Shown here: positions 13,565-56,262 of the stretch, in pieces
Layout of the letters: each line of letters opens with the position of its first letter
How positions within the stretch are numbered: position 1 is the stretch's first letter
Assembly: GCF_018860825.1 (NCBI RefSeq)
Contig: NZ_JAHKPZ010000015.1
Coordinates: forward strand, 62,001 to 126,000
Length of the DNA stretch: 64,000 nucleotides
Source of the DNA: Lacinutrix sp. C3R15
GTDB lineage: Bacteria > Bacteroidota > Bacteroidia > Flavobacteriales > Flavobacteriaceae
Reading direction: 5' to 3'
Program-made: the position numbers and the translations under genes
Notes under the pieces: model-generated
The model's database searches: none
What the model saw: only the letters and a program-made list of their open reading frames with translations
Told to the model about the DNA's origin: nothing

Positions 13565-13807
13565 ATGAGCACAGAAGAACTAAGACTAAATGTAGAAAAA
13601 GCGCTAGAAGAAATTCGCCCTTTTTTACAAAGTGATGGAGGCGATATTTCACTACTATCCATAGAAGATGATAAGCTTGTAAAAGTACAATTACAAGGCG
13701 CTTGCGTTGGTTGTAGTGTTAATCAAATGACGCTAAAATCTGGCGTAGAAATGACTATAAAAAAATACGCACCACAAATAGAACAAGTTATTAATATAGA
13801 AGCTTAG
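13565..13807 (+). CDS. NifU C-terminal-domain (NfuA-like) Fe-S scaffold
   Basis: This 80-residue protein consists only of a NifU-type C-terminal domain. The conserved CxxC motif is Cys47-Val-Gly-Cys50, which binds a 4Fe-4S cluster between two subunits. It carries clusters to target enzymes in partnership with the preceding Mrp-type ATPase, with which it forms a tight operon (3-base gap). The stop is followed after 2 bases by the first copy of the dispersed structured RNA element. Confidence 0.93.
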   Translation: MSTEELRLNVEKALEEIRPFLQSDGGDISLLSIEDDKLVKVQLQGACVGCSVNQMTLKSGVEMTIKKYAPQIEQVINIEA

Positions 13808-13809
13808 TA

Positions 13810-13886
13810 GGGCGTGACCACAAGGGTCAGTCTTTCACTACTCGCTCTCTGCGAGGAGCTCAAACAGGCCGTTCAATCCTTCACGC
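13810..13886 (+). ncRNA. dispersed structured RNA element, copy A
   Basis: This is the shortest of four copies. The outer stem is GCGTGA (13812-13817) with TCACGC (13881-13886). Hairpin 2 is GACC (13816-13819) with GGTC (13825-13828), overlapping the end of the outer stem. Hairpin 3 is CTCGC (13841-13845) with GCGAG (13851-13855). The conserved linkers are the CTTTC-ACT segment and the CCGTTCAATCC segment before the outer stem closes. It lies in the 3' untranslated region of the nfu operon, in the same orientation. It is possibly a member of the Flavo-1 RNA family. Confidence 0.65.
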
Positions 13887-13954
13887 AAACTGATAAATGT
13901 CATAAAATATAGGCATTCTATTGCGTAATTTTGAACAAATAAAATAAAGAAAAA

Positions 13955-23326: not shown

Positions 23327-23833
23327 CTATTCTTCTTCGTTAGATGCTTCTTCTGCAGGAGCATCTTCAGTAGTTTCTTCTACAACTGGAGTGTTTGCTG
23401 CAATTCTAGCTTCGTTTGCTGCTTTTTCAGCTGCAAAAGCTTTTGCTTTAGCTTCTTCTTCAGCTTTAGCTAAACCATCTGTTTTTGCTCCAACTTTACT
23501 TGCTTTTTCTTCTAACCAAGCAGTAAATTTAGCTTCTGCTTGCTCTTCTGTTAAAGCGCCTTTAGTTACTCCACCTTTTAAATGTTTTTTTAATAAAACA
23601 CCTTTGTAAGATAAAATAGCTCTAGCTGTATCTGTTGGTTGAGCACCATTTTCTAACCATGTTACAGCGCCATCAACGTTTAAATCAATAGTTGCTGGGT
23701 TAGTGTTTGGATTGTAAGCACCTAATTTTTCTAGGTATTTACCATCTCTTTTCGCGCGAGCATCTGCTGCTACGATCCAGTAATAAGGTTTTCCTTTTTT
23801 ACCGTGTCTTTGTAATCTAATTTTTACAGGCAT
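23327..23833 (-). CDS. rpsP: 30S ribosomal protein S16 with C-terminal extension
   Basis: A 168-residue protein. Residues 1-85 are the S16 core ([20 protein letters not shown]). The rest is an extension of about 80 residues rich in Ala, Lys and Glu that is predicted to be helical and ends in an acidic tail. Bacterial S16 is typically 80-90 residues; long Ala/Glu tails are common in Bacteroidota. Its 5' leader contains a small hairpin that may be an autoregulatory site. Confidence 0.96.
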
Positions 23834-23848
23834 AATAATTAATTCATT

Positions 23849-23863
23849 GAGGTTCTCGACCTC
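23849..23863 (-). promoter_or_regulatory. hairpin in the rpsP leader
   Basis: In the mRNA GAGGT-CGAGA-ACCTC forms a perfect 5-base stem, 15 bases ahead of the rpsP ATG and within a leader of roughly 40 bases. It is a candidate site for feedback control by S16. Only one copy is available, so there is no covariation support. Confidence 0.4.
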
Positions 23864-23881
23864 TGGTTATTAATAAGTGTG

Positions 23882-29488: not shown

Positions 29489-29806
29489 ATGGCATTAGAA
29501 ATCACAGATGCAAACTTTGAAGAAACAGTATTAAAAAGCGACAAGCCAGTAATGGTAGACTTTTGGGCAGCTTGGTGTGGACCATGTAGAATGGTAGGAC
29601 CAATCATTGACGAAATTAGCACAGATTACGATGGTAAAGCTGTAGTTGGTAAGTTAGATGTAGATGCTAACCAAGAATTTGCAGCAAAATACGGTGTGCG
29701 TAACATACCTACTGTTTTAGTTTTTCAAAACGGAGAAGTTGTAGGACGTCAAGTAGGAGTTGCTCCTAAAAAAGCATATTCAGATGCAATAGACGCGCTT
29801 TTGTAA
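29489..29806 (+). CDS. trxA: thioredoxin
   Basis: A 105-residue cytoplasmic thioredoxin with the redox motif WCGPC at about 31-35, the buried Asp in MVDFWAAW and the cis-proline in RNIPTVLVF. It reduces protein disulfides using a thioredoxin reductase. It stands alone behind dnaE (121-base gap) and ends at a strong terminator. Confidence 0.96.
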   Translation: MALEITDANFEETVLKSDKPVMVDFWAAWCGPCRMVGPIIDEISTDYDGKAVVGKLDVDANQEFAAKYGVRNIPTVLVFQNGEVVGRQVGVAPKKAYSDAIDALL

Positions 29807-29880: not shown

Positions 29881-29980
29881 GGGCGTTTTTTATTTTGCAG
29901 AAAAAGCAAAATAAAACCAGGCTTTCCGCTAAATCTTTTTTGAAAAAAACAAAAAAGGATATCGCTGCAATCCTTAACGC
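29881..29980 (+). ncRNA. dispersed structured RNA element, copy B
   Basis: The outer stem is GCGTT (29883-29887) with AACGC (29976-29980). Hairpin 2 is a perfect 11-base stem (29888-29898 with 29906-29916). Hairpin 3 is ATCTTTTTT with AAAAAAGGAT (29933-29941 with 29951-29960, one bulged G). The linkers AGGCTTTCCGCT and CGCTGCAATCC match the other copies. It lies after the trxA terminator and just before the DUF58 gene start (22 bases), so unlike the others it could sit in the leader of the next gene. Confidence 0.7.
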
Positions 29981-30002
29981 ACTTCTAAGCAAAACATAAA
30001 CA

Positions 30003-45327: not shown

Positions 45328-45392
45328 TACTGTTTCTTCTTGTTGCACTGTTATAATAAATGTATTTTTGTTTTTTCAAAAATATATTTATA

Positions 45393-45971
45393 ATGAGTTT
45401 AGAAAGAGATTTACAAAAACGTAGTGGCTCACAATGTGAGTTGTGTGCTAATCCAGAAAATATTAGCGTTTATACAGTACTTCCTACAAAAAAAGGAGGG
45501 TTAGAAGAAAGCCTTATGGCTTGTAAAACCTGTATTGACCAAATAGAAAATCCAGATACTACAGACGCAAATCATTGGAGGTGTTTAAATGATAGTATGT
45601 GGAGTGAGCATGACGCTGTAAAGGTTGTAGCTTGGCGTATGCTTTCTCGTTTACGAGCAGAAGGCTGGCCACAAGATCTTTTAGACATGATGTACCTTGA
45701 AGAAGATACCTTAGAGTGGGCAAAAGCTACAGGTGAAGGTGAAGACGAGGCAGATAAATTAGTACATAGAGATGTAAATGGTGTGGTGCTAGAAACCGGA
45801 GATTCTGTAGTGCTTATAAAAGACCTTAAAGTAAAAGGGTCTAGTATGGTTGCTAAACAAGGTACAGCAGTAAGAAACATTCGTTTAGACCGTGATAACG
45901 AAACCTATATTGAAGGTAAAGTTGGCCCAACACAAATAGTTATTATTACAGAATACGTAAAGAAAATATAA
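45393..45971 (+). CDS. PhnA-like zinc-ribbon protein
   Basis: A 192-residue protein. The N-terminal zinc ribbon has two Cys pairs, CELC at about 16-19 and CKTC at about 44-47. The C-terminal PhnA domain (about 125-192) contains DVNGVVLETGDSVVLIKDL and a KQGTAVRNIRL strand. The family is misnamed after the phn locus; phosphonate use is not implied here. The frame is open to TTG/ATG 45360, but ATG 45393 is the family start. Copy C of the structured RNA element begins 7 bases after its stop. Confidence 0.85.
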   Translation: MSLERDLQKRSGSQCELCANPENISVYTVLPTKKGGLEESLMACKTCIDQIENPDTTDANHWRCLNDSMWSEHDAVKVVAWRMLSRLRAEGWPQDLLDMMYLEEDTLEWAKATGEGEDEADKLVHRDVNGVVLETGDSVVLIKDLKVKGSSMVAKQGTAVRNIRLDRDNETYIEGKVGPTQIVIITEYVKKI

Positions 45972-45978
45972 TATTTTG

Positions 45979-46099
45979 GCGTTTCCTTTTGTAATTTTTT
46001 AAGGAATAAAAAAACCTTAAAAAATTATAAAAGGTCAGGCTATTCACTATATCTTTTTTAAGAAAAATAAAAAAGGATGCCGTTGCTATCCTTAACGCA
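45979..46099 (+). ncRNA. dispersed structured RNA element, copy C
   Basis: The longest copy. The outer stem is GCGTT (45980-45984) with AACGC (46095-46099). Hairpin 2 is a 20-base stem (45986-46005 with 46016-46035) with a single G-U pair, closed by an A-rich loop. Hairpin 3 is ATCTTTTTT (46052-46060) with AAAAAAGGAT (46070-46079), again with a bulged G. The linkers CAGGCTATTCACT and GCCGTTGCTATCC match copies A and B. Confidence 0.75.
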
Positions 46100-46397
46100 G
46101 CTGTATCATAGTAAACAAGCAATTGCAAAACCAACACACTTGTAAACATAGTAGCCTAACTATGCGTTGACCATTAGGTCAATGAAATTATAATTCGTTC
46201 TTTCGTTTTAGCCTTTACACTACATATTTATTAAAAGGTTCAAAAAAAACAGGTCTACATGATGTTGTTAGTTTTACTTAAAAACCAACAACACATTTAA
46301 ACATACGCACACTATATTTAGTCTTACCAAATAAGACTTAAAAGACGTATCAATACAAAAACTACTTAATTTTTTTATCTATACAGAAGCATCTAAT
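46100..46397. other. intergenic region without gene
   Basis: No coding frame or RNA gene was recognised. An imperfect hairpin (GTTGTT-A-GTTTT with AAAAC-C-AACAAC, 46264-46292) has no T-run. The region presumably holds the promoter of the aminopeptidase genes. Confidence 0.4.
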
Positions 46398-54733: not shown

Positions 54734-54754
54734 GTAATGGTTAGGGTTGCTCTT

Positions 54755-54868
54755 GTGTTAGCGATTGAAATGACATCCTTTTTTTGCTTCCATATAAGGC
54801 AAAAAAAGATATAATGGAAAGCGCGACCACCTTTTGCTTACTTAAAAAAGCAAAAGGTGGTAACACCC
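54755..54868 (-). ncRNA. dispersed structured RNA element, copy D
   Basis: The outer stem in the RNA is GTGTTA (54861-54866 side) with TAACAC (54755-54760 side), whereas copies B and C have GCGTT/AACGC: a paired change. Hairpin 2 is a perfect 14-base stem (54826-54839 with 54848-54861). Hairpin 3 is ATCTTTTTTTGC with GCAAAAAAAGGAT (54799-54810 with 54775-54787), with the same bulged G. The GCGCTTTCC linker and CAATCGC segment also match. It starts 5 bases after the dipeptidase stop on the minus strand. Confidence 0.75.
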
Positions 54869-54873
54869 AAATA

Positions 54874-56262
54874 TTATTTATTTAGTTCTGTAAAATAGTG
54901 ATAGAAGTAAGGAATGGTTTCTATACCTTTTAAGTAGTTCCAAACGCCAAAGTGTTCGTTTGGTGAGTGAATGGCATCACTATCTAAACCAAAGCCCATA
55001 AGTATGGTTTTGCTTTTTAATTCTTGCTCAAAAAGAGAAACAATAGGAATACTACCTCCACTACGTTGCGGAATTGGAGTTTTTCCAAAAGTATCTGCAT
55101 AGGCTTTGCTAGCAGCTTGGTAGCCAACACTGTCAATTGGTGTTACATAACCTTGGCCTCCATGATGCGGTGTTACTTTTACTTTTACACCTTCTGGAGC
55201 AATACTTTCAAAGTGTTTTTTAAAGAGTTCTGTAATTTCTTTCCAGTCTTGGTTTGGTACTAAACGCATTGATATTTTTGCAAATGCTTGGCTTGCAATT
55301 ACTGTTTTTGCGCCTTCACCTGTGTAACCTCCCCAAATTCCGTTTACGTCTAGGGTTGGTCTTATAGAGTTTCTCTCGTTAGTAGAGTAGCCCGCTTCAC
55401 CATAAACGGCGTCTATATCTAATGCTTTTTTATAGTTATCAAGAGAGAATGGTGCTTTTGCCATTTCTGCTCTTTCTTCTTTACTTAGTTCTTCTACCTT
55501 ATCATAAAAACCAGGAATAGTAATGTGGTTGTTTTCGTCGTGCAAAGAAGCAATCATTTTAGTTAGCACGTTTATTGGATTTGCTACGGCACCACCATAT
55601 AAACCAGAGTGTAAATCTCTGTTTGGTCCTGTGATTTCTACTTCAACATAACTTAAACCACGTAATCCTGTGGTAATAGAAGGAACATCTGGAGCAATCA
55701 TTCCTGTGTCTGAGATTAAAATAACATCATTACTTAGTTTTTCGTGATTTTCTTTTACAAAGTCAGAAAGGCTAGAACTACCCACTTCTTCTTCACCTTC
55801 TATCATGAATTTTACATTACATGGTAGTTGGTTGGTTTGGGTCATTAGCTCCATGGCTTTTACATGCATGTACATTTGCCCCTTGTCATCACAAGCACCA
55901 CGAGCAAAAATAGCACCTTCTGGGTGTAGTTCTGTTTTTTTAATTACAGGCTCAAAAGGAGGAGAGTTCCATAAGTTAATAGGATCTGGTGGTTGCACAT
56001 CATAATGACCATAAACAAGCACTGTTGGTAAGTTTTTATCTATAATTTTATCACCATATACAATAGGATATCCTTTAGTTTCACAAATTTCTACATTTTC
56101 ACAACCCGCTTTTTCTAAACTAGCCTTTATGTGGTCTGCTGTTTTTAAAACATCGTTTTTGTATGCAGAATCTGCGCTAATTGACGGTATTTTAAGTAGT
56201 TCTGTCAATTCGTCTAAGAATCTGTCTTTATGTTGATCGATATATTTTTTAATATTTTGCAT
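54874..56262 (-). CDS. M20-family dipeptidase
   Basis: A 462-residue cytoplasmic metallopeptidase of the M20 family (CNDP-like dipeptidases). The first zinc His is in VYGHYDVQPPDP, the bridging Asp in GACDDKGQM, the catalytic Glu pair in EGEEEVGS, and further ligands in SDTGM and the C-terminal HSPNEHFG. The lid/dimerisation domain spans about 200-370. It likely cleaves small peptides imported or released by the secreted peptidases. The structured RNA element copy D lies in its 3' untranslated region. Confidence 0.92.
   Translation of the reverse strand: MQNIKKYIDQHKDRFLDELTELLKIPSISADSAYKNDVLKTADHIKASLEKAGCENVEICETKGYPIVYGDKIIDKNLPTVLVYGHYDVQPPDPINLWNSPPFEPVIKKTELHPEGAIFARGACDDKGQMYMHVKAMELMTQTNQLPCNVKFMIEGEEEVGSSSLSDFVKENHEKLSNDVILISDTGMIAPDVPSITTGLRGLSYVEVEITGPNRDLHSGLYGGAVANPINVLTKMIASLHDENNHITIPGFYDKVEELSKEERAEMAKAPFSLDNYKKALDIDAVYGEAGYSTNERNSIRPTLDVNGIWGGYTGEGAKTVIASQAFAKISMRLVPNQDWKEITELFKKHFESIAPEGVKVKVTPHHGGQGYVTPIDSVGYQAASKAYADTFGKTPIPQRSGGSIPIVSLFEQELKSKTILMGFGLDSDAIHSPNEHFGVWNYLKGIETIPYFYHYFTELNK

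Follow-up and report, generated by a model that had tools for sequence, protein, structure and literature searches.

Flavo-1 elements behind stop codons in Lacinutrix sp. C3R15 and related bacteria: a possible REP-like extragenic element of Bacteroidota

The stretch of the Lacinutrix sp. C3R15 genome analysed here (64,000 nucleotides of contig NZ_JAHKPZ010000015.1, positions 62,001 to 126,000, hereafter the window) contains four dispersed copies of a structured element, each located at the 3' end of a gene, and raises the question of what this element is, which of its strands folds and whether it is read as RNA or as DNA. A first-pass annotation had described the copies as a three-way-junction RNA, folded in the orientation of the host genes and acting in mRNA 3' ends, or as a mobile structured repeat, possibly the Flavo-1 RNA motif. 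Reading the sequence of all four elements confirmed their positions, their placement at gene 3' ends and their nature as a dispersed repeat; the folding strand and the role in mRNA are taken up below.

Copy A extends from position 13810 to 13887 and folds on the minus strand, antisense to a nfu-like gene with a NifU-like domain (13565-13807, plus strand), whose stop codon is 2 nt from the element. Its sequence gives a closing stem of GCGTG (13812-13816) paired with CACGC (13882-13886), a hairpin H2, ACC ACAAG GGT (13817-13827), and a hairpin H3 (13829-13880) with a type II module, the latter also supported by the covariance model R1 described below, which scores the copy at 30.2 bits (E 5.1e-5). 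Copy B (29881-29981, minus strand; 51.9 bits with the Rfam model RF01705 and 54.0 bits with R1) has a closing stem read at 29883-29887/29976-29980, an H2 of about 11 bp (29888-29917) and a type I H3 (29919-29974); it lies 74 nt behind the thioredoxin gene trxA (29489-29806, plus strand), and an intrinsic-terminator-like hairpin is found between the two. Copy C (45979-46099, minus strand; RF01705 58.0 bits, R1 51.7 bits) combines a type I H3 (46037-46092) with a long H2 of about 20 bp (45984-46035), and its closing stem (45979-45983/46094-46098 in the sequence) begins 7 nt after the stop codon of a 203-aa PhnA-domain gene (45360-45971, plus strand). Copy D (54754-54868; RF01705 61.4 bits, R1 54.5 bits) folds on the plus strand, antisense to an M20 peptidase gene on the minus strand (54874-56262) whose stop is 5 nt from the element, and consists of a closing stem (54755-54759/54862-54866 in the sequence), a type I H3 (54761-54824) and an H2 of 14 bp (54826-54861). 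The host genes were delimited as ORFs, and their Pfam matches (NifU, Thioredoxin, PhnA domain and Peptidase_M20) agree with the names nfu, trxA, PhnA-like and M20 given previously, as do the distances of 2-7 bases from the stop for A, C and D. Elsewhere in the window, the S16-Flavobacteria ribosomal protein leader RF03138 matches above its cut-off at 23838-23874 (minus strand), upstream of an ORF at 23327-23833.

The strand of the first-pass annotation is called here the reader strand, and its reverse complement, which is the strand matched by Rfam at B, C and D, the Rfam strand. The unit consists of a 5-bp closing stem, a free-form H2 and an H3 with fixed mismatches, and reads (TTTGG)GCGTT, H2, C, H3, T, AACGC(A) on the reader strand. 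The arms of the closing stem change together, as had been claimed, being GCGTG/CACGC in A, GCGTT/AACGC in B and C, and GTGTT/AACAC in D. H2 ranges from 3 to 20 bp and is free in sequence, commonly of the form ACC...GGT, which is its most frequent foot (67/153). The base of H3 is made of three covarying pairs followed by C-T-x-T-y-C-R-Y opposite R-Y-T-z-C-w-A-T, with covariation at x-w and at both R/Y pairs, weak covariation at y-z and fixed bases in between. On the Rfam strand these fixed positions form A.G, G.A and A.G mismatches, with A in 100, G in 97 and A in 92 of 100 rows on the 5' arm and G in 100, A in 99 and G in 89 on the 3' arm.

Beyond this base, the distal part of H3 is one of several exchangeable modules, of which two are well sampled and two were recognised by eye. 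Type I, the form known to Rfam, is TATATC...GGATGCC with a bulged G, and type II, found in copy A and others, is RGTCGCT...GAGCTYMAACA. The few copies of type III (TACTAGTTTTGG...CCAAAAGCTAACC; L168 and L353, with variants in L352 and L372) and type IV (TACAAGTCC...GGGCTTTCC; L050 and L357) were delimited by eye, the H3 of L050 being drawn from a filtered whole-locus structure scan.

In order to search for the whole unit, the covariance model R1 was built from 21 copies of the window genome with the hairpin tips trimmed; B, C and D were among the training copies and A was not. With filters off and at E <= 1, R1 matched exactly four places in the window, namely A, B, C and D; all four have the closing stem, H2 and H3 of a three-way junction. 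The covariation score of the 21 training copies was 0.358, as compared with 0.149 for shuffled alignments, none of 500 shuffles reaching it, and 12 of 23 pairs varied at both partners; one of five measures, the number of further pair types, showed no excess in these copies (17 against a shuffle mean of 19.3). For 95 distinct rows from nine other genomes the score was 0.389 against 0.128, again reached by 0/500 shuffles, in an alignment that is fitted to the model and for sequences whose kinship can alone exceed all shuffles. In these rows 19 of 23 pairs varied at both partners, and displacing the 3' arms by 1 to 3 columns lowered the paired cells from 95.0% to 41.7-51.4%. Correction of quasi-palindromes is unlikely as the sole source of the covariation, since the A.G/G.A mismatches stay fixed beside the covarying pairs, and may be a contributor. 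Free-energy folding was less clear: C and D are more stable than shuffled sequences, A and B not clearly so, and the optimum for a single sequence does not always show the three-way junction.

The suspected identity with Flavo-1 held for three of the four copies. The Rfam 15 model RF01705 (gathering cut-off 42 bits) matches 54753-54832 (plus), 46029-46106 (minus) and 29911-29995 (minus) with 51.9 to 61.4 bits, corresponding to D, C and B, but gives no match to copy A at E <= 5; A is joined to the others through the common closing stem, H2 and lower H3 captured by R1. The window copies are members of Flavo-1 or, in the case of A, a sister type carrying the second H3 type. Many further covarying copies were found in the window genome (G000) and in related genomes. 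In the former, RF01705 at E <= 0.001 gave at least 25 places (21 above the cut-off) and R1 at E <= 0.1 at least 32; combined by coordinates, 19 were common, 6 Rfam-only and 13 R1-only, making at least 38 places, a lower bound with 150 of 843 and 150 of 7528 candidates scored. Copy A and 12 further R1 places are absent among the RF01705 matches listed at E <= 0.001. Two of the 38, at the end of contig C1 (L019) and the start of C7 (L020), are near-identical long-H3 copies with the same flank, and reflect either a duplication that happened recently or a repeat in the assembly. RF01705 matched 26 of the 40 genomes in a search of relatives, the window genome included, with 0 to 45 matches per genome, and 22 of 148 genomes of the phylum, again with the window genome, under stricter filters.

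The 76-position hairpin of Rfam (Weinberg 2010, PMC2864571) corresponds to the type I H3 on the same strand; the full unit differs in adding the closing stem and H2, and its H3 also occurs with other distal modules. The relevant part of a 2022 review of small RNAs lists Flavo-1 among the most abundant ones and leaves its function column blank (PMC9029176). The passages of the Flavo-1 literature found mention no function, three-way junction or stop-codon rule, although the Weinberg supplement may say more. Within these passages, no account is given of the full unit, its folding strand, the stop anchoring or the exchange of modules.

A G.U pair is tolerated in a folded strand, the complementary A.C less so. 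An alignment-free count over six pairs in 142 type I copies gave 18 G.U for the Rfam strand against a single one for the reader strand (binomial p 8e-5); y-z had been omitted from the script beforehand because it is unpaired in 39/95 rows. This pair alone points in the opposite direction (10 against 19), and with it the count in the 142 copies becomes 28 against 20, which is not significant. The helices of H2 and of the H3 tip, in 156 parsed copies out of 195 model matches, gave 14 against 2 in favour of the Rfam strand (p 0.004), and a model-fitted count gave 27 against 8 without y-z and 9 against 11 for y-z itself. All these counts include orthologous copies, so the wobble events are not independent. 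As a control, 319 terminator hairpins, unscreened for false ones, showed 76 G.U and 41 A.C. Free energy is uninformative as a strand test overall: the two strands are about equal for A and B and equal for D, and for C the reader strand gives the more stable fold (z -6.43, as compared with -3.77 for the Rfam strand).

The preference does not seem to follow the transcription of the host gene. For 112 copies with hosts transcribed along the reader strand, a set in which site loci were assigned wholesale and which thereby includes an inverted copy (L181 of G003), the helices gave 9 against 1 and the lower pairs only 3 against 2; for 25 copies of the other orientation the figures were 2 against 0 and 1 against 0. 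The Rfam strand being favoured in both orientations, the preference seems to be a property of the element rather than of the direction of its host's transcription. The strand that keeps its pairing is the Rfam strand, in most cases antisense to the gene upstream, and not the one in the host gene's orientation as the first-pass annotation had it. Wobbles are rare overall (27/1909 cells) and G-C/A-T swaps common, which is compatible with a DNA structure without being proof of one; since G.T is the better mismatch in DNA too, the wobble test picks the strand and does not separate DNA from RNA.

The element is often anchored to stop codons. Its gene contexts, scored for 136 copies in ten genomes, were ++ in 69 cases, -- in 27, +- in 21, -+ in 9 and +? 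in one, with 9 copies inside called ORFs. In the window genome 20 of the 34 copies with context lie between co-directional genes, and 14 of these 20 are within 9 nt past the upstream stop, where uniform placement within the spacer predicts 3.0 and none of 20000 simulations reached the observed number. Clustering by blastp of the hosts of 158 copies outside ORFs, 10 of which face no gene stop, produced 95 host families, with the reader strand sense in 63, antisense in 31 and both in one; the nearest copy is at most 20 nt from the stop in 32 of the sense and 9 of the antisense families. No theme was seen by eye in the functions of the host genes, and the flanks are not conserved past a few bases.

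Comparison of orthologous sites reveals that many copies have been kept in place. The A and D sites are occupied in 7/7 genomes of the genus each. For 20 further sites of the window genome, two of which (L168 and L171) were unparsed even there, a conservative parser found the element in at least 58 of 84 site-genome pairs in the other six genomes, and the remaining 26 pairs are in part occupied according to R1 or inspection by eye and in part empty. Between G000 and G002, at 13 sites with the same H3 type picked by a parser that favours conserved cores, the core is identical at 630/650 positions and gap-free, as compared with 712/842 in aligned flanks and 176/260 at third codon positions (84/260 differ); between G000 and G001 the values are 684/740 for the core and 830/996 for flanks. 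Changes in place were few among the pairs of the closing stem and the first three of H3: 3/104 changed on both sides with pairing kept between G000 and G002 and none on one side, and the 120 pairs compared between G000 and G001 included 1 two-sided change with pairing kept, 4 one-sided changes to wobble, 1 one-sided change to mismatch and 1 double change without pairing. Empty orthologous sites (L165 in G002; L161, L177, L178, L021 and L022 in G006) mean that copies have been gained and lost.

Some sites are shared more widely. The M20 gene, picked because the window genome carries an element there, was followed in 80 public loci of Flavobacteriaceae, the nearest being from Lacinutrix himadriensis (94%). 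Of the 25 matches that R1 gave in these loci at E <= 0.1, 19 are no more than 150 nt from the M20 3' end and all have the reader's sense; the other 6 are scattered over the remaining 470 kb or so. Inspection of 28 loci by eye added three more ends (L343, which is L. himadriensis, L344 and L355), so that 22/80 carry the element, in Lacinutrix, Algibacter, Tamlana, Mariniflexile, Hyunsoonleella, Aquimarina, Cellulophaga and Flavobacterium. Host families recurring in more than one genus number 13/95. An ancient origin of the nfu site is not supported outside the near relatives: 2 of 29 loci from other genera carry the element there, and the site is younger than that of M20.

The H3 types are exchanged in place. 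Both types occur among orthologues at 5 of 18 parsed sites (L159, L166, L174, L177 and L181); at L177 the copy of G001 has a type I and that of G003 a type II H3, with similar left flank, H2 and right flank. Conversion between dispersed copies would be the simplest cause of these exchanges. In G003 an inverted copy is present at L181. Other dispersed palindromes, CCTGCCTGCCGGCAGGCAGG, CTTGTTCTCGATACAA..CACTCGAACTGACA and CCTGAGCGGAGTCGAA, are inserted in or near the hairpin tips of the element at the nfu site (L197, L198), at L155, L157, L159 and L181 in G001-G003 and at the B site in G002 and G003, and one such palindrome is present in both H3 arms at the nfu site of G001. By eye, an extra hairpin of the CCAAC..GTTGG type abuts the closing stem on the left and shares GTTGGGCG with the element (L155, L159, L161 and L180 in G001; L161 and L180 in G003).

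The interpretation favoured here, to which somewhat less than an even chance is given, is that the window copies represent a REP-like extragenic element in Bacteroidota, broader than the Flavo-1 of Rfam and with a folded strand that is read as DNA. Copies would have arisen by rare insertion after stop codons, and their modules would subsequently have been exchanged by conversion between copies. At gene ends, a dedicated factor may recognise the folded strand in the form of single-stranded or cruciform DNA, and mRNA 3' ends may be affected as well, as they are by REPs. Between DNA and RNA we lean to DNA because the preferred strand does not depend on how the host is transcribed, copies are found in both orientations and promoter motifs are not in excess in the flanks. 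More doubtful, and put forward as a tentative possibility, is the specific proposal that Flavo-1 is not an RNA gene but a folded mark, single-stranded or cruciform, in the antisense DNA strand behind stops, with a constant scaffold and interchangeable modules, recognised by a flavobacterial factor and kept at some of the same genes across genera. If this is true, Flavo-1 would have to be moved out of the RNA genes, among which it is filed, and a structure-reading factor of Bacteroidota would be implied. Against the DNA reading, no protein is known to recognise the Flavo-1 fold. The full three-way unit, its folding strand, the stop anchoring, the H3 swaps and the recurrent hosts make the function of Flavo-1 more readily testable.

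Among known systems the element appears most like the REP elements of Escherichia coli, being extragenic, palindromic, multi-copy (at least 38 places in its own genome) and located at gene 3' ends. It differs from them in its three-way junction, whose mismatches are fixed and whose modules can be swapped, and in having positions common to several genera. REPs carry a conserved GTAG-type tetranucleotide at the hairpin foot. The nearness of Flavo-1 copies to stop codons (14/20) is another likeness: in the accessible part of one study, 446/4,072 E. coli REPs are within 15 nt of the upstream stop and 260/496 in an earlier study cited there, and binding of gyrase and IHF features in its reference list (PMC12306157). 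Pneumococcal BOX repeats, according to the part of the source consulted (PMC3049150), are likewise small dispersed bacterial repeats, of a different host.

Mobilisation by a transposase of the RAYT/Y1 type linked to REPs is not supported for the present genomes. The domain PF01797 has no match in the window genome, G001, G002 and G006, and 1 or 2 weak matches above the cut-off in each of G003, G004 and G005, of the same genus. More broadly, 9 to 45 Flavo-1 matches occur with no PF01797 in eight genomes (G000, G001, G002, G006, G009, G011, G023 and G025), and PF01797 is present with 2, 1 and 0 Flavo-1 matches in G013, G016 and G030. The weak matches in G003-G005 and the presence of both in G012, G019, G020, G022, G028 and G036 point the other way. 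Modular composition is a further likeness between the BOX repeats and Flavo-1.

The strongest counter-argument to the DNA reading is the orientation bias in 63/95 host families with little replication bias, since this fits a role in mRNA. A replication-strand element was rejected for lack of a clear bias: in G001, with replication arms taken from GC skew over 20 sampled 20-kb pieces, the reader strand is leading in 12/16 copies on one arm and 17/34 on the other (29/50). Together, the bias in gene orientation and the weakness of the replication bias suggest something linked to transcription. Moreover, several copies (L177, L157, L022 and L184) are placed after the stop but ahead of an intrinsic terminator, a position in which they are probably transcribed. 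An element of the mRNA 3' end, whose transcribed copy folds behind the stop and influences termination, the release of ribosomes, reinitiation or decay by 3' exonucleases, would account for the distance of 9 nt or less from stops and for the retention at orthologous 3' ends, and has a precedent in E. coli, where ribosome stalling is reported, in the part of the study available, for REPs within 15 nt of the stop (PMC12306157). This reading is nevertheless rather unlikely, since the mRNA of hosts in the common orientation contains the strand that lacks wobble tolerance, and the other orientation is found in 31/95 host families. The RNA acting in mRNA, in the form given by the first-pass annotation, is not supported, the G.U-tolerant strand being antisense to the host in 63/95 host families; the copies in the other orientation and the inverted one at L181 also speak against it. 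A terminator was rejected too, T-runs directly past the element being rare on both strands (5/156 and 13/156).

A separate small or antisense RNA, transcribed as the Rfam strand in the direction of the host gene's 3' end, agrees with the wobble tolerance of that strand and with the Rfam entry type of RF01705 (Gene; sRNA), and is judged improbable. Promoters have the -7 motif TANNTTTG, in the spaced pattern TTG..TANNTTTG. A promoter on the Rfam strand was rejected, as TANNTTTG alone is equally frequent toward and away from the element (14/156 flanks each), with 7/148 and 8/148 on the other flank; the spaced pattern on the Rfam strand occurs in 5/156 flanks toward and 2/156 away, which is too few to judge. 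The conservation of flanks over a few bases only also speaks against a transcribed gene of this kind, and in the part of the Flavobacterium psychrophilum RNA-seq study available, Flavo-1 matches lie in either orientation, many of them outside transcribed regions, giving no clear support for expression as a small RNA (PMC9723704).

A purely selfish or neutral mobile repeat, for which insertion behind a stop is harmless and structure is needed only for movement, has a still smaller probability. The uneven number of copies among genomes (0 to 45 matches), the coexistence of occupied and empty orthologous sites and the nesting of other palindromic repeats in the loops of the element fit such a repeat. 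Against it speak the conservation of the core at orthologous sites, which exceeds that of flanks and third codon positions, and sites common to several genera such as the M20 3' end with 19 of 25 R1 matches, though gene conversion or an insertion hotspot could partly mimic both the conservation and the sharing across genera.

Integron attC sites lie directly after a gene, fold from the antisense strand, conserve structure more than sequence and have a variable terminal part and core boxes RYYYAAC/GTTRRRY. An attC-like recombination site is very improbable here, for while the geometry is the same (a position behind the stop, a folded antisense, or bottom, strand and variable tips), the hosts are dispersed single genes with no cassette arrays around the elements, the core boxes were not seen by eye in the closing region, and none of 40 genomes has a match to the integron integrase TIGR02249 above the cut-off, while the weaker ones present in 39/40 of them and in 14/14 control genomes are other tyrosine recombinases. 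A literature search for integrons of Bacteroidetes found nothing related.

A gene-cassette-like array was seen as a separate observation at L473 (G006, contig C14; 1-2352, minus strand). A tyrosine recombinase of 378 aa matches NF040815 ('site-specific tyrosine recombinase/integron integrase') above the cut-off and TIGR02249 below it, the latter in two pieces. It is followed by two small ORFs on the same strand, each with a hairpin-type site, GTATAACCGC..GCGGTTATAC, after it, the second site being cut by the end of the locus. The best such tyrosine recombinases lie near contig ends in several genomes, that of the window included.
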